A stretch of DNA of 64,000 bases, taken from Sorghum bicolor (taxonomy: Eukaryota; Streptophyta; Magnoliopsida; Poales; Poaceae). Positions 47,859-62,885 of this stretch are shown one piece after another. The stretch is taken from the NCBI RefSeq assembly GCF_000003195.3, contig NC_012876.2, positions 58,708,407 through 58,772,406 of the forward strand. Reading direction: 5' to 3'. How positions within the stretch are numbered: the first letter of the stretch is position 1; each line of letters starts with the position of its first letter. The notes beneath the pieces were generated by a model. The model was not told the DNA's origin and did not search any database. It was given only the letters and a program-made list of their open reading frames with translations. The position numbers and the translations under genes were made by a program.

Positions 47859-48082
47859 GCGCCTTGTTTAGATCCGAAAAATTTTCGGATTTTGACACTG
47901 TAACACTTTTGTTTTTATTTGACAAATATTGTCCAATCATGGAGTAACTAGGCTTAAAATATCCGTCTCGCGATTTACAGGCAAACTGTGTAATTAGTTT
48001 TTGTTTTCATCTATATTTAATGCTCGATGCATGTGCCGCAAAATTTGATGTGACATAAAATCTTGAAAAGTTTATAGTTTTT
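47859..48082. mobile_element. MITE, GCCTTGTTTAG family (copy 6), left part, split by the Ty3 element
   Basis: Starts gcgccttgtttagatccgaaaa after CTA (47856-47858) and runs through the family blocks to tttatagttttt. The remaining end, ttttggggtgaactaaacaaggc, is at 62862-62885, followed by CTA (62886-62888). The Ty3 element has inserted near its right end. Confidence 0.85.
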
Positions 48083-51000
48083 TGTAACACCTCCGTGTTA
48101 AGCCTGCATAATGCATATACTTAATTAACCTCAAACCTTCATTAAGCATGGCATAAGCATTATCAAGCATTAACCCTAAATGCATCATCTTTTTTGTGTG
48201 TTGCATTTTGTTTCAATTTAATTAATTGCTTGAGTATTGCTTTGTTAACTAATTGTCCTGCAAACAATTAATCAAGTTGGATCCATGTGCCTAGTCTTCA
48301 AATGAATTAACAAAGTTCTTTGCAAAAGATTTGAGGCATTTTGGAGCAAAAGAAATTACTTTGAAAATAAATTCCTTTTTGCCCTAGGTTCAAAATAAAT
48401 TTATAGTTCATAAATTATTTAGAATTTTGAGTTGAGACCTAAATGAAAGTTGCTCAGTTTAAAATTCTCTACAACTTTTATTTTGGGCACTTTTCATGAA
48501 AAAGCTTTTAAATTTGCCAAATGGTGGCATTTGAGTCAGATTCAAATTTTCAAAAAAAAAAGAGAAAACCAGCGCGAACCGGCAGGCCGGATTTGGCCCA
48601 CACCAGCCCACCGGCCCGCGCCCGCGTCCGCGTCCGCACCCGCGCGCCGCGCGCGTCGTGGCCGACCGGCCACAGGCTGGGAGCGCCACGCGCTCGCCGT
48701 CGCCTGGCTGCCGCGCCGCGTGGCCGGCGATGCCTGGCGAGCGGGCCCCGCCACGGCCGCCTACCCGAAATGGGTCGCGCCTCGTCCCATTTCGCTCGCG
48801 CATTCGCCCGGCCGCGCCTGCCCGCTCCCTCTCTCGCTCTCGCCGCGTCCGCAGCTGCAGCGCGCACGCTCGCCGCGACGCTCGCCGTCGCCGGCGTGCT
48901 CGGCCTCGCCCGCGCCCGCTCAAGTCTCGCCTGTGCGCGCTCGAGCTCCGCCACCACCCGCGCCACCCGTCCGTTCGTGTTTCCGCCGCTGCCATCGTCG
49001 GTGAGGAGGCCGATTCGGCCGTTTTCTTCCGCACCGCCGTGGGCGGGACTCCGCAAACTCGCGCCGCCGCGTCTCCGCCTCCCTGCTCCCTCCTTTTTCC
49101 TTCTTGCGCACGCACCAGGGCCGCTAGACCTCGAATCGAGGGTTCCCGCACTCAATCGTAGCAATGCGCGCGCGTCGGCCACCGCGCAGTGCTCGTCGGA
49201 GCTCTTCTCCGCCGCCGTGCTGCCATGCACGCGGCCGGGAACCTCCAGCGCCCTACGCGCACACCGAGCCGCAGGGTTAGGTCCGCCTCGCGCTCGCACA
49301 CGTGGTGCGCTCCTCGTCGGAGCCAACCGGCGCCGGAGACGGCCGCCGAGCCTCCGTGCCAACCGCCGGAGCGCCGGCCACCGCCTCGGCCTGGTCAGGG
49401 GAGAGGGCGAGGGTTTTGGGCCGAGAGGCTCAGCCTGGCCGCGGCAATGGCCTGCTGGGCCGGCCCATGCGCCAGGGTTTCGGCCCTTTTTTTTATTTGT
49501 TTTGCAGGAAATGTTTCAAATGAAATTGAATTTTTAGCAAGGGCAAATGAGATCCAAATTTGAAGAAATTTGTTTTGTTAGACTTCTACTGAGTAGATCT
49601 GTCTTTGAAAAATATGAGATGTATTTTTTGGTGAATATTTTATGTGGGGATCTATTTAATTGCTTAAATAGCTTAAATCTGAGAAAAAGCATAGTAAATA
49701 GGTTATTGCTCTGAAAAATGTGATTCTTGTTTTGCTAGACTCTATGTGTGGTGTAGTTGATGGAAAAATTAAATGGAATGCTGTTGCTGTGCAAAAATAT
49801 TGGAATATGATTTAATTCCATAATTGGGCTAATTCTTGCATGATTTTTAATAAATAAAGTATGTGGAATTATGCCTTGTTAATTTTTACTAACTTCTCTT
49901 GTGCTAAGTAGTGTTAGATAAAAATATGAAATCTGTTGTTTGACACTTTTCACTGTACAAAGTTATTAAATGTGCTTTTCTGACCAGTAGCTTCATCTTT
50001 TTGTGTAGGCTGCTGTACTTAGCAAAAAGTGGTGAAAAAAATTTATCATAACTCTGTTATAGCATAGAGTAGCTCCTGTAATTTTGTGGAATTTTCTGAG
50101 CTATCTAGACAGAGGTCACAGTTCAAGCCTGTTTATTCCCATGAAATGATAAGTAATAGGATTAAAACGATTTTATGGTTTCATAGCCATTCTTGTGCAT
50201 TTTCGATTATGTGATGCTTGCTGGTTCTTTGTTTTCGCATCCTAGCTGAAATGTGGTGTTGGTAATGAATAGTAGTTCCTTTCTCGTAATTTCGCATTGT
50301 GTGTGTGCGCCTAGCCACATCACTCTTCTTGGTGCACTTCTCTAAGTATTTAGAGAAGAAGTATGCACTTACTCCGTAAATGAGTTAGGTTGTTAGTAGA
50401 AAGGAGATATGCACCTACTCTGTCAAAGATTTATTACTCATCTTCATTCATGATCATCATACCTCGTGCATTCATGATACTTATGCACGTGCATCGCATC
50501 ATACAGGTTCGCAAGAGGACCTCCCGTATTCGGAGATAGAGGAGGACCCGCAGGACGAGCCCCAGCCGGAGGTCTTCCCAGAGGAAGGCCAAGAGGAGTT
50601 GCCGGAGTGCCCAGACCACCGCGCGTCTGACTTTGTGCAAGGCAAGCACCGGAGCATTTACTTACCTATGCTTTCTAACAGTCCAATTGTGCTTTATGAT
50701 TGTTGCATTAAGTATAGGAGTTGTGTGACACCGTTGCTGCATTATATCCTTGCTTTACCATTGATTATCCTACCTTGATATACCCTGCTAGTCTAGGTCG
50801 AGTTTATGCTTAGCCTGCTTAGACGGTAGAAGTCGGGTGATTTCCTGTCATCCGCGAGATAGGTGGTTACTCATGATTGATGGAAGAGCTTAGGTTGGAT
50901 ATCATCTAGTTAATGGCTATGGTGGATAAGTGGAGACTGGACGGAGTCTTGTGGGGTTGTTGGACCATAGTGATTCCGTCTGTGTCGATTAAGGACCGTA

Positions 51001-52130
51001 CCGTTGCTGTACCCCAAGTCATGTTGAACGCATGCCTTATGTTTAGCTGGCCGGATAAGTCGTTCCGACCGCGAAGCCCAACACTATCCGGGCCGGTTTC
51101 TCGATCCGTTCGCACCGTATTGGAGATGGATGGGGGACTACGGGGGCGCGAAGAGTAAGTCCGAGGCCAGCGTGGCTGGCTAAGGCAGTCGGGCGGTTCC
51201 CGGGTACGGTGGTTCTATGCGAGTCCGCGTGCTTGTCTTTCTGGATATGTGCCATGGTGACCTGTAGCTCACTTTAGCGGGTGAGCGTGGTTTGCATAAG
51301 GAATACCCCTGAGCTCAGTAGTAATCGATTCGAATCGCCATCGTTCCTGGACAGTGAACACTTGACTTGAGCTGCACCATCGTAGTAATGATTATGGAAT
51401 GTGATTAACGATGATGATGAGATAAGTTGATGAATATGATTATAATATTACTTGCTTGCTTAATCAGGAATTAATACTATAATGATGCATAGTACAGGTG
51501 CTCACCTAGCATAAATAGGAAGGAATAAGCGGAGTTATTAATTAAATATTGCTTTTGCTTTCCGCAAAGGCGTCGAGCCATCCCCCGATAAAGCCAGTCA
51601 TGCTCCTTGGAGTCTTTTCTTTTGAGTTAGTCGGGTAATTCTAGCTGAGTACCTTCTCGTACTCAGGGTATTTTTTCCCGCTTGTTGTTTGTGCAGACGG
51701 GCATACCTACCACGGGTACTGCGAGACCTGTCTTTTCCCAGTGGACTAGAAGACCTTGGGCAAGGTTAATCTTAGTACTCTTCCTCAACTGCTTTTGATG
51801 GATGGACTCTGGACTGGCACTGTATAAGTTTTAAAGGTGTGAGTTGGGTTGAGCTTTCAAAAATTATCTTGTTTTTTCCGCTATTTGGACTTGAGGAACT
51901 CGGTTTGTAATAACTTTATTTTCCGCACTCTGATGTTGTTGAACTATTTGTGAAATGTTGTAACATGCGAATGGTGACGCTAAACTTGTACGATCTTGGT
52001 TGATGATGATTGGTTTGAAATCCTTCGAGATTTCCGGACTACCGGGTTTATAACGGCTTAAGTGCGACAAACACTCGCTTAGCGAGTGGTGTTTCACTTA
52101 TGCTTTTATAAATTGGTCGGTTCTGTTACA
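48083..52130 (+). repeat. 5' LTR of the Ty3 element
   Basis: Begins TGTAACACC and ends TTCTGTTACA (TG...CA; TGTAACA/TGTTACA inverted). Composition is mosaic: an AT-rich start, a CpG-rich block of about 900 bp (48560-49480), an AT-rich middle, and a short GC-rich exon-like block at 50506-50650. Confidence 0.96.
50506..50778 (+). other. Acidic mini-frame inside the LTR, preceded by a splice-acceptor-like site
   Basis: After atacag an open frame of 90 codons starts without Met. The first 40 residues or so are very acidic and proline-rich (EDLPYSEIEEDPQDEPQPEV), then the composition turns hydrophobic. It is retained in the 3' LTR with one silent-looking change. It could be a leader exon of a spliced transcript, or chance. 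No known domain. Confidence 0.35.
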
Positions 52131-52132
52131 GC

Positions 52133-52144
52133 TGGCATCAGAGC
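52133..52144 (+). other. Primer-binding site, initiator tRNA-Met type
   Basis: TGGCATCAGAGC begins two bases after the 5' LTR and matches the usual plant PBS TGGTATCAGAGC except at one position. Confidence 0.85.
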
Positions 52145-52225: not shown

Positions 52226-52925
52226 TTACAAAATTAAGAGTGTGCCAGAGGTCATATCCTTTATGCCCAAATAAGGACTTTAGGTGGCTATTTGAGTACT
52301 GACATGGGGGTTTTTGCATCATATTTCTATTTCGTTGCTCATACGACATGCAATAGTATGGGTGCCATTCGCTTGAATGGTAATGTATGGTTCCATTTGC
52401 CTCTACGCTTCGGTAAGTGGGAGTTGTGAGAGCATGGTTGTCCAACCAGCAATCTAGGGGAGTGCTAGCATGATACCGGAAGTACTTGCATGTCAAAACC
52501 ATGTACTTACCAAGGTATTTAATTGTGGGTTGTGCCGTCTGTTGAGACGATGCCGTCATTGGACGAGGAGCGGGTAGATGTACTACATGTGCGTGTATTG
52601 GGGATGCACGTGCGTGTGAGTGCTTAATCCTTATTTTCTGCAATGCATTGTTCATACTGCTGGGATGGGCTGAAGTGGATTTTCTGCAGGTACATAACAG
52701 CGATTCGTGTAGAACGACTAGTTATACGCTATGAGAGAACGTTGTATGCCACTGTATACCCGCTAGAATTATTCTTGCTAAGTTTGTGAGGAAGTAAGAC
52801 GCGAGCATACATCATGTTTGTTCATTCCATGTCATTACATTTACCTTCCCTTATAAATTGATTCTTCTAGTAATTAAAATGGGGTTAAATTAATAACTTG
52901 ACTCATCCGGGATAATTTCTGACAG

Positions 52926-53975
52926 ATGGCCCGCACAAAGCAGACGGCTCGCAAGTCCACTGGGGGACGTGCGCCACGTGGACCGCTCGCACCTCGCACC
53001 ACGTTCCGGGAGGGGCACTTCTTGGAGGAGTTTGGGATGCCCACGCTCCTTTGGCGTGTGCTGGCCCATGTGGGGTATACAGAGGAGCAGCGACCTGTGT
53101 ACTCCTGGGTGACTGAGGAGCCGAGCGACAGAGACCGCTTGGTCGCTGTGGAGGTTACCGTCCCACCACTCCACGAGGACTCCGAGTGGGAGGGGTGGCG
53201 CATTCGTGCCTATGGAGTCACGCCAGGAGAGGGGGCTAGCAGGGTTGCCTTCTGTGTCCTACGCATCATCATGGAGCGTTTTCCACTGAGCCTGGCACAG
53301 GCTATGGCGGGAGTGTTTCCTCGAGGTGATCCTACTGACACCTTTTGGGAGCAGTCTCCCAACATGGCACGCTGGCCTGGAATTCATGAGATTGAAGACA
53401 GTGACAACGCAGCGATGAGTGCCATGTTTGCTATGATGCAGACCTTGGACGCTACCCAGTCTTGCATGAACAAAATCAATGGCTGGAACAAGACCTTGAT
53501 GGAGAGGCAAGAGAAGAAGAAGAAGAGGCACTCGGATCGTGTCAGAGATCTGAGGCTTCAGATAGACCTTATCACTGCCACCAGGGATGACGCTGAGGCC
53601 CGTGAGAGAGCTGCCAACAAGGAGATCGCTACCTTGCGTGCACGTGTGGCACGCTATGAGCAGTACGAGCGTAATGCCGACAGGATGATGGCCTAGTTGG
53701 TCGCTGAGAGGAATGAAGCCCGGAACGATGCTCACCAGCTGGGGCACTGGCTTTTTGACCGGGAGCAGTACATCACTCAGCTGCATGAGGACTACCACGT
53801 GCTGTACAACCAGCTACACCACGTTCCCGCACCTGGAGCTGCTGAGATGGAGCCTGGGGTTATTGACCCCGATGGAGGCGAGGAGGACGCTGACCTTCCA
53901 CCTGCACCTGCGCCTGCACCCGACGACGACGTGGTTCTTGCTGCCGAGTCCGACGTTGGTAGCGAGCACGAGTAG
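52926..53975 (+). pseudogene. Extra retrotransposon ORF with a histone H3 N-terminal tail mimic; one in-frame TAG
   Basis: The ATG at 52926 follows gacag, an acceptor-like site. The predicted product starts M-ARTKQTARKSTGG, identical to histone H3 residues 1-13 (R2, T3, K4, R8, K9, S10 included). Position 14 is Arg instead of Lys, residues 15-17 (APR) and 20-21 (LA) match again, and then similarity to H3 stops. There is no histone fold. Residues of about 30-150 form a compact Trp-rich region (WEGWRIRAYGVTP, VLRIIMERFPLSLAQAM) that I do not recognise. From about 190 a lysine-rich start leads into a charged heptad-like region (predicted coiled coil), and the last 40 residues are acidic and proline-rich, ending SDVGSEHE. 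TAG at 53694-53696 is codon 257. The frame continues for 92 more codons without other breaks. This is either a recent nonsense mutation, a readthrough site, or the true end of the protein. Confidence 0.75.
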
Positions 53976-54316: not shown

Positions 54317-57300
54317 ATGCAGATGGTTGACACTCGCCGTACCGCTAGTGGCTCTCTAGTGGGAGATGGCTCCGGCCAGGGCAATGGAGGCAATGTAAAT
54401 GGTGGAAATGGTAATGGAGGCAATGGGGGTAATGGGGCCAACCCCGGGACCGAACCGCCACCTCCACCTCCCGACCCTTTGACAGCTGAGCAGCTTTTAC
54501 AGCAGTTCCTCGGCAGTCAGCGCAACATGGAGGCCACGTTGCGTGACATTGCAGCAAACACCCGTCACGGAGGCCACCGTGACCGCCCAGTGAACCAGTA
54601 CAGCACTTTCAAGGATTTTCTGGACACAGATCCGCCAAAGTTCCTGCAAGCTAAGGAACCGCTCGAGGCTCTCGAGTGGATCAATACCATGGAGGACAAG
54701 TTTCGCCTACTCCGCATGACTGAGTCGCTGAAGGTGGAGTATGGTGCCCATCAACTGCAGGGGCCGGCTGGAATTTGGTGGTCCCACCAACGCACCACTT
54801 TTCCGCCGGATACTCCTATCACCTGGGCGCAGTTCACCCAGATTTTCCGCAGCACCTATGTCCCACCAGGCCTGATGGCCATGAAAGTGTCTGAGTTCAT
54901 GAGGCTCACTCAAGGCAATAAAAGTATGAATGAATACCTGCAAGAGTTCAATAATCTGTCCCGTTATGCTCCATCACATGTGGACACTGAAGAGAAGAAA
55001 ATAGAAAGTTTCAAAAGAGGCCTTAATACGAAGATGGCTAAAACCATGGGTATCAGTTCGAGGACTACATTCAATGCGTTCATCAGCGACTGCTTGACTC
55101 AGGAGAATAATAACAATCTGCATGCTGCTTCCAAGAATCGCAAGAGAAGCTTCGAGGGAGGATATTCCCAGTTCCGACCTCCAATGCCTAACCGTCACCA
55201 GTATCGCCCTCCAGTTCAGAACCCAAGGTTCTGTGCACCTGCTCCCAAGAGGAATGCTCCGCCCCCTCCGAAGAATCAGAGGGGCTATCGCCCACCTGCA
55301 CCCCAGGCTCAAGCCAAGACTGGGGGTTCCACGGCAGTTTCTTCCACCGTGAGAGGCCCGTGCTTCAACTGCAACCAACCAGGTCACTTCGCCAAGTATT
55401 GCCCCTACCCGAAGAAGCAGACAACCTATCAAGCCCGTGCTCATCACACTTCTGTGAATGAGATTCCTGATGGCGAACCAGTCACTGCGGGTACGTTTCT
55501 TGTCAACCAACATCCTGCGGTTGTTTTATTTGATTCTGGATCATCGCATTCTTTTATGAGTCAAGCATATGCACGGTCACATGAGTTAAAACTTAAGCAA
55601 TTGGATTATGGGTACCACATCAGTTCTGCTGGTGCTGACGTTCTATCTAATCAAATGCTTGAGCATGCAACTTTTGAAATTGGAGATAAAGCATATAGAG
55701 TTAATTTGGTAGTGTTGCCTGGGTTGGCTATGGATGTGATCTTGGGAATGGATTGGATGAAGGATAAGCAAGTGGTGATTGATACTGGGAATAGGACCGT
55801 TACCCTCACGGATCCTCAGGGTAAGGACACTTTTCAAGTGGTATTACCTCGAGTTGCAGACATGACCAAGTTAACCTATGCTATTCGAGCTTCCTCGCTT
55901 GCCGAGATTCCAGTAGTCTGTGAATTCCCTGATGTTTTTCCTGAAGACTTGCCCGGGTTGCCTCCTAAAAGAGACATTGAATTTGCAATTGATCTAGTGC
56001 CTGGTACAGCTCCGATCTGCAAGAGACCGTATCGTATGCCTCCCAATGAGTTAGCAGAGTTGAAGAAACAGTTGTATGAGCTGAAGAAGCTGGGTTTCAT
56101 CAGGCCAAGTACTTCTGAATGGGGTTGTCCAGCTTTGTTTGTGAAAAAGAAGGATCAATCCTTGAGGCTATGTGTTGATTATCGGCCACTCAATGCTGTG
56201 ACAATTAAGAACAAGTATCCTCTGCCGAGAATTGATATTTTGTTTGATCAGTTGTCTAAAGCTAAAGTGTTTTCCAAGATTGACTTGAGATCAGGGTATC
56301 ACCAGATCAGGATTCGTCCCGAGGATATACATAAGACTGCTTTCGTTACAAGATATGGGTTGTACGAGTATCTTGTTATGTCTTTCGGCCTAACAAATGC
56401 TCCTGCATACTTTATGTATCTTATGAATTCAGTCTTTATGCCCGAATTGGATAAGTTTGTAATTGTATTCTTGGATGACATTCTGATCTACTCCGCAAAT
56501 GAAGAAGAGCACGCCCAGCATCTGCGGGTTGCACTTACTAGGCTAAGAGAGCATAAGTTATATGCCAAGTTCAGTAAATGTGAGTTTTGGTTAAAAGAAG
56601 TTGCCTTCCTTGGCCATATCATTTCTGAAAATGGCATATCAGTCAACCCATCGAAGGTACAAGAGGTCATGGATTGGCAACCGCCCACATCTGTGCATGA
56701 AGTTCGGAGTTTTCTTGGAATGGCAGGGTATTATCGCCGTTTCATTCCAGATTTCTCTAAGATCGCCAAACCTATGACAAGTCTTCTGCAGAAGGAACAT
56801 AAATTTGTCTGGACGGAAGAGTGCGAGGCAGCTTTCCGCACCCTGCGGGAGTTGCTAACCACTGCTCCTGTCTTGGCACAGCCTAATATCGAGAAGCCTT
56901 TTGATGTGTACTGCGATGCATCGAAGACCGGGTTGGGGTGCGTGCTGATGCAAGAAGGCCGAGTAATCGCTTATGCTTCCCGTCAGTTGAGAAAGCATGA
57001 AGTCAACTATCCTACGCACGATCTCGAACTAGCTGCAGTTGTGCATGCCTTGAAGATATGGAGGCACTATCTGTTGGGAAATGTATGCAATATCTACACA
57101 GATCACAAAAGTCTCAAATACATTTTTACCCAACCTGAGCTTAACATGAGACAAAGAAGATGGTTAGAGCTAATCAAGGACTATGACTTGACAGTGCACT
57201 ATCACCCTGGCAAGGCAAACGTAGTTGCGGATGCTTTGAGCCGCAAGTCACATCATCATGCTGTAAAGCCGATGGCTAGAGAGAGGTTCAATCTGATGCA

Positions 57301-58801
57301 TCCTGCAGTCCTGCATAATATCCAAGTTCGATGTTCTCTTGACCAACAGATCATTGAAAGCCAAAAGACTGATCCTGGCATATATCACCTCAAAGAAAGA
57401 ATGAAGGAGTCAATCCCGCATTTCAGAATCGATGACAGTGGTGTACTTTGGTTCGATACTCGTCTTGTCGTACCAAAGGACCGAGAACTCAAGAACAAGA
57501 TAATGGATGAGGCTCACCTTTCCAAGTTATCCATCCACCCTAGAAGCAACAAGATGTATCATGACCTAAGACCCCGATATTGGTGGACCAAGATGAAGAA
57601 AGAGATAGCAGCCTATGTGGCTCGATGCGATACTTGTTGTCGTGTCAAGGCCATCCACATGAAGCCGACACGTTTGTTAAAGCCGCTGCCAGTTCCTGCT
57701 TGGAAGTGGGACGACATAAGTATGGATTTCATCACGGGCCTGCCAACTACGCAAAAGGGGAATGACTCGATCTGGGTAGTCATTGATCGACTAACCAAGT
57801 CAGCTCACTTCTTACCTGTCCAAACGACCTACAGACCACCTCAATATGCTGACCTCTACCTTAAAGAGATTGTACGTTTACATGGGGTACCCAAGACCAT
57901 AGTGTCTGATAGAGGATCGCAGTTCACGGCTCACTTTTGGACCCGTTTACATGAAGGTATGGGTACTAAGTTGTTGCACAGCACCGCTTATCATCCTCAG
58001 ACTTCGGGTCAGACTGAAAGACTTAACCAAATTCTTGAAGATATGTTGAGAGCTTGTGTGCTATCTGCCAAGGGTTCGTGGGAATCTTGGCTACCGTTGG
58101 CTGAGTTTTCCTACAACAACAGCTATCAAGAGAGTATCAAGATGGCGCTGTTTGAAGCGTTATATGGCAGAAAGTGTAGAACTCCGTTGAACTGGGTAGA
58201 AGCGGGAGAGAGGAGATACTACGGTATTGACTTTGTTCCCGAAGCTGAAAAGAAGGTTCGAACCATCCAAGAGCACATGAAAGCTGCACAGTCCCGACAA
58301 AAGAGTTATGCTGATAACAGAAGGAGACCCTTGAAATTCGAAGTCGGTGACTACGTTTACCTCAAGGTGTCCCCGATAAAGGGTGCGCAAAGGTTTGGAG
58401 CCAAGAGGAAGCTTGCGCCAAGATATGTGGGTCCATACAGGATTCTTGAAAGAAAGGGTGAAGTTGCTTACAAGTTGCGATTGCCCGAGTCGATGAGTTC
58501 CATCTTTCCGATCTTTCACGTCTCTCAGCTGAAGAAGTGTCTGCGAGTACCCGAAGAAAGGGTCGATGAGCGAGATTTGAAGCTAGCAGCTGACCTGGCC
58601 TATAAAGAGGAGCCCGTAAGAATTGTGGATAACAAAGAAAGAATTACTCGGAATCGCACGGTGCGCACTTACAAGGTTGTGTGGAGCTACCATGATGATA
58701 GAGATGCATCATGGGAGACTGAGGATTACCTGAAAGAAGTTTATCCTGAGTTTCATAAAACCTGGTTAGTTAACCCAAATCTCGGGACGAGATTTTCTTA
58801 A
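54317..58801 (+). CDS. Gag-pol polyprotein of the Ty3 chromovirus, 1,494 codons, uninterrupted
   Basis: One open frame. The second Met at 54323 directly follows atgcag (acceptor-like) and may be the true start. Gag: Gly/Asn-rich N-terminus, retrotransposon gag domain at about residues 90-240, and zinc knuckle CX2CX4HX4C at 349-362. Protease DSGSS at 406. Reverse transcriptase includes [14 protein letters not shown] and FLDDILIYS (Asp720/721). RNase H has YCDAS (Asp867) and ends at [15 protein letters not shown]. Integrase has an HHCC finger (HLSKLSIHP...CDTC), then a DD35E triad at Asp1137, Asp1198 and Glu1234 with exact 60- and 35-residue spacing, and a GPYRIL-type C-terminal module. Residues of about 1432-1485 ([21 protein letters not shown]...[16 protein letters not shown]) form a chromodomain-like tail, which in chromoviruses steers integration to chromatin with modified H3. 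All visible catalytic residues are intact. Confidence 0.95.
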
Positions 58802-58812
58802 GGGGGTAGGAC
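58800..58812 (+). other. Polypurine tract
   Basis: aagggggtagga lies directly before the 3' LTR and overlaps the gag-pol stop codon. It primes plus-strand DNA synthesis in LTR elements. Confidence 0.8.
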
Positions 58813-61800
58813 TGTAACACCTCCGTGTTAAGCCTGCATAATGCATATACTTAATTAACCTCAAACCTTCATTAAGCATGGCATAAGCATTATCAAGCAT
58901 TAACCCTAAATGCATCATCTTTTTTGTGTGTTGCATTTTGTTTCAATTTAATTAATTGCTTGAGTATTGCTTTGTTAACTAATTGTCCTGCAAACAATTA
59001 ATCAAGTTGGATCCATGTGCCTAGTCTTCAAATGAATTAACAAAGTTCTTTGCAAAAGATTTGAGGCATTTTGGAGCAAAAGAAATTACTTTGAAAATAA
59101 ATTCCTTTTTGCCCTAGGTTCAAAATAAATTTATAGTTCATAAATTATTTAGAATTTTGAGTTGAGCCCTAAATGAAAGTTGCTCAGTTTAAAATTCTCT
59201 ACAACTTTTATTTTGGGCACTTTTCATGAAAAAGCTTTTAAATTTGCCAAATGGTGGCATTTGAGTCAGATTCAAATTTTCAAAAAAAAAAGAGAAAACC
59301 AGCGCGAACCGGCAGGCCGGATTTGGCCCACACCAGCCCACCGGCCCGCGCCCGCGTCCGCGTCCGCACCCGCGCGCCGCGCGCGTCGTGGCCGACCGGC
59401 CACAGGCTGGGAGCGCCACGCGCTCGCCGTCGCCTGGCCGCCGCGCCGCGTGGCCGGCGATGCCTGGCGAGCGGGCCCCGCCACGGCCGCCTACCCGAAA
59501 TGGGACGCGCCTCGTCCCATTTCGCTCGCGCATTCGCCCGGCCGCGCCTGCCCGCTCCCTCTCTCGCTCTCGCCGCGTCCGCAGCTGCAGCGCACACGCT
59601 CGCCGCGACGCTCGCCGTCGCCGGCGTGCTCGGCCTCGCCCGCGCCCGCTCAAGTCTCGCCTGTGCGCGCTCGAGCTCCGCCACCACCCGCGCCACCCGT
59701 CCGTTCGTGTTTCCGCCGCTGCCATCGTCGGTGAGGAGGCCGATTCGGCCGTTTTCTTCCGCACCACCGTGGGCGGGACTCCGCAAGCTCGCGCCGCCGC
59801 GTCTCCGCCTCCCTGCTCCCTCCTTTTCCCTTCTTGCGCACGCACCAGGGCCGCTAGACCTCGAATCGAGGGTTCCCGCACTCAATCGTAGCAATGCGCG
59901 CGCGTCGGCCACCGCGCAGTGCTCGTCAGAGCTCTTCTCCGCCGCCGTGCTGCCATGCACGCGGCCGGGAACCTCCAGCGCCCTACGCGCACACCGAGCC
60001 GCAGGGTTAGGTCCGCCTCGCGCTCGCACACGTGGTGCGCTCCTCGTCGGAGCCAACCGGCGCCGGAGACGGCCGCCGAGCCTCCGTGCCAACCGCCGGA
60101 GCGCCGGCCACCGCCTCGGCCTGGTCAGGGGAGAGGGCGAGGGTTTTGGGCCGAGAGGCTCAGCCTGGCCGCGGCAATGGCCTGCTGGGCCGGCCCATGC
60201 GCCAGGGTTTCGGCCCTTTTTTTTTATTTGTTTTGCAGGAAATGTTTCAAATGAAATTGAATTTTTAGCAAGGGCAAATGAGATCCAAATTTGAAGAAAT
60301 TTGTTTTGTTAGGCTTCTACTGAGTAGATCTGTCTTTGAAAAATATGAGATGTATTTTTTGGTGAATATTTTCTGTGGGGATCTATTTAATTGCTTAAAT
60401 AGCTTAAATCTGAGAAAAAGCATAGTAAATAGGTTATTGCTCTGAAAAATGTGATTCTTGTTTTGCTAGACTCTATGTGTGGTGTAGTTGCTGGAAAAAT
60501 TAAATGGAATGCTGTTGCTGTGCAAAAATATTGGAATATGATTTAATTCCATAATTGGGCTAATTCTTGCATGATTTTTAATAAATAAAGTATGTGGAAT
60601 TATGCCTTGTTAATTTTTACTAACTTCTCTTGTGCTAAGTAGTGTTAGATAAAAATATGAAATCTGTTTTTTGATACTTTTCACAGTACAAAGTTATTAA
60701 ATGTGCTTTTCTGACCAGTAGCTTCATCTTTTTGTGTAGGCTGCTGTACTTAGCAAAAAGTGGTGAAAAAAATTTATCATAACTCTGTTATAGCATAGAG
60801 TAGCTCCTGTAATTTTGTGGAATTTTCTGAGCTATCTAGACAGAGGTCACAGTTCAAGCCTGTTTATTCCCATGAAATGATAAGTAATAGGATTAAAACG
60901 ATTTTATGGTTTCATAGCCATTCTTGTGCATTTTCGATTATGTGATGCTTGCTGGTTCTTTGTTTTCGCATCCTAGCTGAAATGTGGTGTTGGTAATGAA
61001 TAGTAGTTCCTTTCTCGTAATTTCGCATTGTGTGTGTGCGCCTAGCCACATCACTCTTCTTGGTGCACTTCTCTAAGTATTTAGAGAAGAAGTATGCACT
61101 TACTCCGTAAATGAGTTAGGTTGTTAGTAGAAAGGAGATATGCACCTACTCTGTCAAAGATTTATTACTCATCTTCATTCATGATCATCATACCTCGTGC
61201 ATTCATGATACTTATGCACGTGCATCGCATCATACAGGTTCGCAAGAGGACCTCCCGTATTCGGAGATAGAGGAGGACCCGCAGGACGAGCCCCAGCCGG
61301 AGGTCTTCCCAGAGGAAGGCCAAGAGGAGTTGCCGGAGTGTCCAGACCACCGCGCGTCTGACTTTGTGCAAGGCAAGCACCGGAGCATTTACTTACCTAT
61401 GCTTTCTAACAGTCCAATTGTGCTTTATGATTGTTGCATTAAGTATAGGAGTTGTGTGACACCGTTGCTGCATTATATCCTTGCTTTACCATTGATTATC
61501 CTACCTTGATATACCCTGCTAGTCTAGGTCGAGTTTATGCTTAGCCTGCTTAGACGGTAGAAGTCGGGTGATTTCCTGTCATCCGCGAGATAGGTGGTTA
61601 CTCATGATTGATGGAAGAGCTTAGGTTGGATATCATCTAGTTAATGGCTATGGTGGATAAGTGGAGACTGGACGGAGTCTTGTGGGGTTGTTGGACCATA
61701 GTGATTCCGTCTGTGTCGATTAAGGACCGTACCGTTGCTGTACCCCAAGTCATGTTGAACGCATGCCTTATGTTTAGCTGGCCGGATAAGTCGTTCCGAC

Positions 61801-62861
61801 CGCGAAGCCCAACACTATCCGGGCCGGTTTCTCGATCCGTTCGCACCGTATTGGAGATGGATGGGGGACTACGGGGGCGCGAAGAGTAAGTCCGAGGCCA
61901 GCGTGGCTGGCTAAGGCAGTCGGGCGGTTCCCGGGTACGGTGGTTCTATGCGAGTCCGCGTGCTTGTCTTTCTGGATATGTGCCATGGTGACCTGTAGCT
62001 CACTTTAGCGGGTGAGCGTGGTTTGCATAAGGAATACCCCTGAGCTCAGTAGTAATCGATTCGAATCGCCATCGTTCCTGGACAGTGAACACTTGACTTG
62101 AGCTGCACCATCGTAGTAATGATTATGGAATGTGATTAACGATGATGATGAGATAAGTTGATGAATATGATTATAATATTACTTGCTTGCTTAATCAGGA
62201 ATTAATACTATAATGATGCATAGTACAGGTGCTCACCTAGCATAAATAGGAAGGAATAAGCGGAGTTATTAATTAAATATTACTTTTGCTTTCCGCAAAG
62301 GCGTCGAGCCATCCCCCGATAAAGCCAGTCATGCTCCTTGGAGTCTTTTCTTTTGAGTTAGTCGGGTAAGTCTAGCTGAGTACCTTCTCGTACTCAGGGT
62401 ATTTTTTCCCGCTTGTTGTTTGTGCAGACGGGCATACCTACCACGGGTACTGCGAGACCTGTCTTTTCCCAGTGGACTAGAAGACCTTGAGCAAGGTTAA
62501 TCTTAGTACTCTTCCTCAACTGCTTTTGATGGATGGACTCTGGACTGGCACTGTATAAGTTTTAAAGGTGTGAGTTGGGTTGAGCTTTCAAAAATTATCT
62601 TGTTTTTTCCGCTATTTGGACTTGAGGAACTCGGTTTGTAATAACTTTATTTTCCGCACTCTGATGTTGTTGAACTATTTGTGAAATGTTGTAACATGCG
62701 AATGGTGACGCTAAACTTGTACGATCTTGGTTGATGATGATTGGTTTGAAATCCTTCGAGATTTCCGGACTACCGGGTTTATAACGGCTTAAGTGCGACA
62801 AACACTCGCTTAGCGAGTGGTGTTTCACTTATGCTTTTATAAATTGGTCGGTTCTGTTACA
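58813..62861 (+). repeat. 3' LTR of the Ty3 element
   Basis: 4,049 bp; one base longer than the 5' LTR because of a T-run before atttgttttgcagg. About 19 substitutions from the 5' copy by eye. Confidence 0.96.
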
Positions 62862-62885
62862 TTTTTGGGGTGAACTAAACAAGGC
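62862..62885. mobile_element. MITE copy 6, right end (continues 47859-48082)
   Basis: After the TTTTT duplication the sequence resumes with ggggtgaactaaacaaggc, the right inverted end of the GGCCTTGTTTAG family, followed by CTA. Confidence 0.85.

Follow-up and report, generated by a model that had tools for sequence, protein, structure and literature searches.

The extra open reading frame (ORF) located upstream of gag-pol (5′aORF, 52926-53696) in an element assigned by its sequence to the Tekay/Del-type chromoviruses of Sorghum bicolor starts with the N-terminal tail of histone H3. This tail is kept by purifying selection. The window refers to the whole stretch of DNA that was analysed (64,000 nucleotides). 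Papers are given by PMC number.

The ORF opens with MARTKQTARKSTGGRAPR; nucleotides 52926-53000 translate to MARTKQTARKSTGGRAPRGPLAPRT. Residues 2-14 are those of H3 1-13, H3 K14 is replaced by Arg, and H3 15-17 (APR) and 20-21 (LA) match again. A phmmer search of 177,635 distinct PDB sequences gave 132 matches at E <= 10 (top match: E 5.2e-5, 26 bits); the best 60 of the 132 are all histone H3 or H3-like chains and lie within query residues 1-28. No histone domain was found by a Pfam search of the ORF at E <= 1, and the predicted fold is dsRBD-like: the protein has the N-terminal tail of H3 and lacks the histone fold. The sequence-only reading, which had described a retrotransposon ORF with an H3-tail start and a non-histone remainder, is confirmed on these points by the translation, the phmmer and Pfam results and the LTR pair and gag-pol that surround the ORF. 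The 256-aa ORF is ended by a TAG (53694-53696), beyond which the reading frame stays open to 53975. A 349-aa frame is found in 3 of 4 sister copies (L002-L004, not L005); the TAG is premature and the window copy itself is truncated. The Pro at the place of H3 Q19 is private to the window copy, Gln being found there, as in H3, in the four sisters.

Features of the element are given in Table 1. The LTRs differ by 18 substitutions and 1 gap (K2P 0.0045), which corresponds to an age of about 0.17 My at a rate of 1.3e-8 per site per year. The aORF starts about 0.8 kb downstream of the end of the 4.05-kb 5′ LTR. The order of the gag-pol domains is that of Ty3/gypsy, with RT, RNase H and integrase (Pfam). 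A (K/R)X(L/T)RX(k/r) motif and a WE motif, compared with the Tekay chromodomain motifs (PMC3350952), are visible at the integrase end, where the Pfam Chromo match is sub-threshold. The LTR start shares 9 of 10 bases with the U3 att consensus of Del (TGTAACACCC-like; PMC4029996). The LTR start and the motifs seen at the integrase end fit Tekay/Del; the host element is classified, on sequence features, as a young Tekay/Del-type Ty3/gypsy chromovirus.

Table 1. Coordinates of the element and of its 5′aORF in the window
Feature	Position	Strand	Basis
Target site duplication TTTTT, left	48078..48082	.	Exact edge uncertain (T run)
5′ LTR, start TGTAACACCT	48083..52130	+	Self-BLAST vs 58813-62861: 99.53% identical, 4049 columns
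Primer binding site TGGCATCAGAGC, presumably of the initiator-Met-tRNA type	52133..52144	+	Sequence
Putative splice acceptor TTTCTGACAG, abuts aORF ATG	52916..52925	+	YAG before ATG in 50/50 distinct A/B loci
5′aORF, 256 aa, closed by in-frame TAG	52926..53696	+	Translation; sister-copy comparison
H3-like tail, residues 2-24	52929..52997	+	Translation, phmmer, codon comparisons, tail counts
dsRBD-like domain, residues 38-118, alpha-beta-beta-beta-alpha	53037..53279	+	AlphaFold2 prediction, structure comparison
Long helix, probable coiled coil, residues 161-255	53406..53690	+	Predicted model
Open frame past TAG, acidic end as in intact relatives	53697..53975	+	Translation, relatives
gag-pol, 1494 aa, open	54317..58801	+	Pfam domains; CAG abuts second ATG (54323)
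Weak chromodomain match, integrase end, residues 1433-1479	58613..58753	+	Pfam E 0.043, 14.2 bits, cut-off 25.1
Polypurine tract AAGGGGGTAGGAC	58800..58812	+	Sequence
3′ LTR	58813..62861	+	Self-BLAST vs 5′ LTR
Target site duplication TTTTT, right	62862..62866	.	Sequence

The sorghum genome (709,120,108 bases) was searched with the window ORF and 148 matches were scored of 2460 candidates. They fall into family A, with 5 matches (93-100% identity), and family B, with 143 (44-46%), whose tail reads MARTRLTARKSTGGRAPR. The copies fetched (5/5 of family A, 43/143 of family B) all carry the tail (48/48), on bodies that are 40% identical between the families. Among 5.8 billion proteins searched, 28 non-histone relatives were found at E <= 1. 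The N-terminus is present in 12 of them, and all 12 have the tail; the other 16 are without readable N-terminus (P0002, P0005-P0007, P0010, P0012-P0014, P0016-P0018, P0020, P0021, P0023, P0024, P0027), P0002, 99% identical to the window protein, being listed from an inner Met. In a more distant group (P0029, P0032, P0033; P0031 is cut), the tail precedes a body of about 31% identity. P0033 comes from the grass Aristida adscensionis; tail-bearing relatives are also found in metagenomes. Chance resemblance is rejected because the same N-terminus is found in all 48 copies of two families and in distant relatives. A search with residues 1-40 of P0029 revealed proteins made of tail, coil and acidic end with no visible middle domain (P0035, P0037-P0040, P0050, P0053). 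A 1345-aa fused frame at C7:41976198 was discarded, the fetched stretch containing Ns.

An identical 173-aa protein is found in a metagenome (P0026) and in the sorghum genome (L080:138-659); this relative of family B still has the tail and the acidic end, whereas its dsRBD-like domain and coil are mostly lost. Strongly acidic C-termini, which slightly resemble histone chaperone tails, are found in P0002, P0005, P0035, P0037, P0040 and family C (L065), even without the middle domain.

Family C is the sorghum form of the type with tail, coil and acidic end and no visible middle domain. It is abundant, accounting for most of the 150 matches scored among 2643 candidates in the genome search. Its tail is an altered one: its 12 loci all encode M[A/G]R[Q/W]KQT[P/S/L]RKRTGPKGVPRHQLAPR or a near form; one (L071) has a stop within the tail. 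Family D comprises 32 of the 34 genome matches of P0029 (E 4e-7 to 9e-4, 21-24% identity, tail not covered), the other 2 being tail-only matches of family B type. No tail-like motif was found in any frame of 12 family D loci (0/12); the ORF start (MAEGVWTSSYC or similar) is seen in 9 of them. Profile comparison relates family D to the P0029 group (96%, E 3e-9) and weakly to families A and B (38%, E 3e-4), and relates the P0029 group to families A and B with the tail included (99.4%). Pairwise RT identity to family A, among these four families of one genome, is 89% for B, 80% for C and 73% for D, and the integrase end of family D also resembles a Tekay chromodomain. Since tail-free D is homologous to the tail-bearing P0029 group, the sequences indicate a common 5′aORF with, in one of its branches, either a gain or a loss of the tail. 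The 5′aORF class can do without the tail. Homologues lacking the tail had been named beforehand as grounds against the mimicry proposal: they exist, which weakens the proposal and does not imply that the tail is neutral where it is present.

Between families A (L002) and B (L020), codons 2-24 show pS 0.595 and pN 0.156, versus pS 0.701 and pN 0.414 for the other 315 aligned codons. A pN as low as that of the tail was found in 0 of 292 segments of 23 codons; the count is 1/292 with L007 replacing L020 and 0/149 for L004-L062. Fisher tests on rounded nonsynonymous counts gave p 0.0007 and 0.0013. Synonymous change in the A-B tail is near-saturated and nonsynonymous changes are few: the tail is kept by purifying selection, as found by the selection check on tail codons that the sequence-only reading had proposed. 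Sequence identity to a histone tail under selection is one mark of a histone mimic. The tail differs by 5 synonymous and 0 nonsynonymous changes between L002 and L004, and by 7 and 0 between L002 and L005; the window copy differs from L002 by 1 nonsynonymous change, at H3 19. The pN/pS ratio is 0.26 for the tail, 0.59 for the rest of its own protein and 0.084 for RT (RT pN 0.061), so that constraint on the tail is below that on RT and above that on the rest of the protein. Among the 45 copies of family B, the tail variants counted are 7 nonsynonymous and 13 synonymous ones; their per-site ratio equals that of the dsRBD part, both being alike constrained with no excess in the tail. The C-terminal row of this count was dropped (220 'stop' variants, ascribed to misalignment of broken or N-holding copies), and the same copies may slightly inflate its other rows.

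Among 26 distinct tails, T6 and K9 are found in 26, A1, T11 and G12 in 25, R2, T3 and R8 in 24, K4 in 22 (Arg in the other 4), A7 in 21, S10 in 20, Q5 in 19 and G13 in 18; exact H3 1-13 is found in 8. These rows are mutually related and 7 were found via the tail itself; the 16 relatives without readable N-terminus, P0031 and the non-plant or unplaced proteins from the tail search are omitted. In 19 GG-type tails, K9, T6, S10, A1 and T3 are invariant (19/19), and Lys is absent from position H3 14 (17 Arg, 1 Gln, 1 Trp). Arg at this position would keep the charge and could not be acetylated; its presence in the non-plant or unplaced proteins is not taken as support, the query having Arg there. 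In 7 GPKG-type tails, K9, R8, T6, T11 and G12 are kept in 7, A7 in 3 and S10 in 1. The tail comparison points to a constraint centred around K9 rather than K4. K4, put forward earlier as a key mimicked site, was rejected as the selected feature: Arg replaces it in 44 of 45 copies (43 fetched copies plus L061 and L062) of family B, to which most matches of the search with the window ORF belong. H3K9 enzymes read A7 and S10, and the earlier interpretation is also weakened by the GPKG subgroup, where these two residues are mostly changed. The GPKG tails and family D show that a faithful mimic is dispensable for such elements.

The N-termini of 11 host H3 genes were compared (L081-L089, L099, L101; perhaps not all those of the genome). 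When codons for H3 1-13 are compared with the first ten of these, the window tail shows 5-7 synonymous and 0-1 nonsynonymous differences; the numbers for family B (L020) are 4.5-8.5 and 2.5-3.5. Likeness to the H3 tail itself, as first read from the sequence, is upheld by the phmmer matches. Only 6 of 13 codons are identical to those of L101, and recent capture is rejected, codons differing from every host H3 N-terminus compared. As the differences from host H3 are almost only synonymous, an old capture kept by purifying selection is favoured. A GT follows H3 K23 in the host genes L089, L099 and L101, as at an exon end, and the H3 likeness of the element likewise stops in the K23 region (QLAPR for QLATK); the captured sequence was probably the first exon of an H3 gene with introns. 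Families A and B (L001, L004, L020, L062) and host L099 share an identical run of 17 bases around K9, GCTCGCAAGTCCACTGG, neighbouring synonymous sites being different; this run, noticed post hoc, may be a conserved nucleotide signal, chance or a trace of the donor.

A dsRBD fold (alpha-beta-beta-beta-alpha) was obtained in two predicted models and by structure comparison, the best matches of both models being the dsRBDs of DRB7.2 and DCL4. Sequence identity in the best ten rows of the comparison is 9-18%. Foldseek alone gives a weak result for the predicted domain (best E 0.027), the VIA-align lists being a second look at Foldseek's own matches, and no dsRBD match was found by a Pfam search of the ORF at E <= 1. 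The KKxAK lysines at helix 2 of dsRBDs contact dsRNA. By eye, this motif is absent from the window protein (GEGASRVAF), P0029 (AETITRAAH) and family D (ADTYQAVARK). For the body, the prediction is thus a fold similar to that of partner-binding dsRBDs (DRB7.2, DCL4), together with a coiled coil. The systems for comparison are dsRBDs that bind proteins (DRB7.2, DCL4 dsRBD2, TRBP, Loquacious, Staufen), from which the aORF domain differs by its low identity in those ten rows and its lack of a Pfam dsRBD match. A weak DRBM-like fold has already been reported for maize and sorghum 5′aORFs (PMC11728184).

The best explanation, held tentatively, is that the 5′aORF protein carries an old, selected H3 tail that engages writers or readers of K9 and a body that binds a partner, the whole acting as a local bait or adaptor. 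H3 itself starts with Met-Ala; Met removal would likewise leave the aORF protein with a free H3-like N-terminus. The tail would then engage, presumably in the nucleus, the writers or readers with which the host acts on H3 in the vicinity of K9. The body (dsRBD-like domain without the usual RNA-contacting lysines, long coiled coil, acidic end) would oligomerise and bind a partner, which may be a DRB- or DCL-like silencing factor. Its likeliest function would be to keep H3K9 writers or readers occupied at the RNA or particles of the element, a bait having to act locally because cellular H3 is abundant. The spread of the tail, its low pN, the synonymous differences from host H3, the invariance of T6 and K9 (26/26), the presence of the tail on proteins without the middle domain and the DRB7.2/DCL4 fold matches count for this explanation. 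Counted against it are the persistence of tail-free family D (0/12 loci), the GPKG tails, which keep K9 and mostly not A7 or S10, the constraint on the family B tail, which does not exceed that on the dsRBD part, the constraint below that on RT and the truncation of the window copy. A nuclear adaptor that engages H3K9 writers or readers is the likely role as read from sequence. The retention of the H3-like front end by selection suggests that histone mimicry is the way in which these grass elements cope with the silencing machinery of the cell.

H3 tails bind importins, and the tail could be kept as a basic, disordered signal for nuclear import or nucleic-acid contact in which H3 likeness no longer matters. 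This reading is rather unlikely. It fits the basic residues, which survive in all tail types, including the GPKG type with S10 changed to Lys or Arg, the replacement of K4 by Arg only (4/26) and the predicted nuclear location of Poaceae 5′aORFs (PMC11728184), but 24-26 of the 26 tails retain the non-basic T6, T11, G12, A1 and T3, beyond the need of a basic signal.

A tail read by H3 readers, directly or after methylation, could instead act jointly with the integrase chromodomain in bringing the particle or pre-integration complex to heterochromatin. The same tail data fit this tether, and a second tether is conceivable, type II chromodomains being described without aromatic cage residues and with partners unknown (PMC6317226, PMC3350952); Del elements also accumulate around centromeres in sorghum and maize (PMC4029996). 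It is nevertheless judged unlikely: an integrase end of the chromodomain type is found in tail-free family D as well, and the sunflower Tekay group with a 5′aORF is the one without centromere bias, its aORF being without amino acid similarity to the Poaceae ones (PMC11728184). A further reading, unlikely to the same degree, is a two-handed anti-silencing protein encoded by a clade of grass LTR retrotransposons, whose H3 tail would occupy H3K9 methylation or reading at the element and whose dsRBD-like domain would dock to plant Dicer/DRB proteins; if true, one protein would hinder chromatin-based and RNA-based silencing at once.

It is improbable that the tail is a ligand within the particle, where the chromodomain or integrase of the element itself would bind it as a signal for assembly or maturation. 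Tail and chromodomain are indeed encoded by the same element, but the chromodomain lacks the aromatic cage positions (own reading; type II, PMC6317226, PMC3350952) and tail-free family D resembles the element in its integrase end. A neutral relic of a captured H3 gene, in line with the gene capture reported for sorghum LTR retrotransposons (PMC7264820), is already contradicted by extensive synonymous change with the protein kept, between families and versus host H3 genes, and by the 5:0 ratio of L002 and L004, and is scarcely credible.

The aORF shares its pre-gag position, clade, grass hosts and C-terminal coil with the Poaceae Tekay/Del 5′aORFs (maize Tekay, sorghum Sb7, rice Retrosat-2; PMC11728184). 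Steinbauerova et al. reportedly noted in 2011 (Genetica) that part of the extra ORFs of Poaceae chromoviruses resemble the histone H3 gene; H3 resemblance of such ORFs is not claimed as new, a partial similarity being reportedly already in print. Viral histone mimics such as the influenza NS1 tail and SARS-CoV-2 ORF8 have matches that are 4 residues long, internal or C-terminal. They are likewise short H3-like stretches in foreign proteins; unlike them, the aORF has the whole H3 N-terminus at its true N-terminus. The AlkB (m6A demethylase) ORF of orchid Ty3/gypsy elements is likewise a host-derived domain, an extra part of a plant element and linked to an epigenetic layer (PMC9289625, PMC12786077), but is an enzyme that acts on RNA, whereas the aORF tail is a likeness to a histone tail. 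The role of extra ORFs of plant LTR retrotransposons is presented as an open question (PMC7264820, PMC11728184). The word 'histone' does not occur in PMC11728184 or PMC7264820, and the passages used of PMC6317226, PMC3350952, PMC4029996, PMC9289625 and PMC12786077 do not describe aORFs with an H3 tail. Searches of the open-licence PMC literature, judged by titles and abstract beginnings, listed no paper on such a 5′aORF. As far as this search reaches, the constraint on the tail, its focus on K9, the tail on other bodies, the tail-free family D, the exon-1 reading and the acceptor-like starts are new.

A selectively kept, K9-centred H3 tail allows a concrete and cheap test, by synthetic peptides against H3 readers and writers. 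If such peptides bind, a retrotransposon would have a histone mimic directed against, or used for, the H3K9me2 heterochromatin by which it is controlled. The coexistence of tail-bearing and tail-free families in one genome constitutes a natural experiment.

The YAG directly before the aORF ATG in the 50 distinct A/B loci is CAG in 49 and TAG in 1. YAGG precedes this ATG in the 12 family C loci and CAG precedes it in the 9 family D loci with start seen. The gag ATG is also preceded by YAG in the window (54320-54322), L002, L004, L006, L007, L065, L067 and L069, and the probable gag ATG of family D (L063) by CAG. Alternative 3′ splice sites would put the aORF or the gag-pol ORF first on the mRNA. 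The occurrence of YAG before aORF and gag ATGs across four families suggests alternative splicing as an expression switch.

MARTKQTARKSTGGR also starts non-histone proteins outside grass elements, whose bodies then diverge (F-box, AAA-like, unknown). Some are fungal by name (P0036, P0045, P0054, P0061); further ones are P0041, P0044, P0048, P0049, P0051, P0052, P0055, P0056 and P0058-P0060. The pairing of an H3-tail start with a foreign body may be a recurrent theme in eukaryotes.
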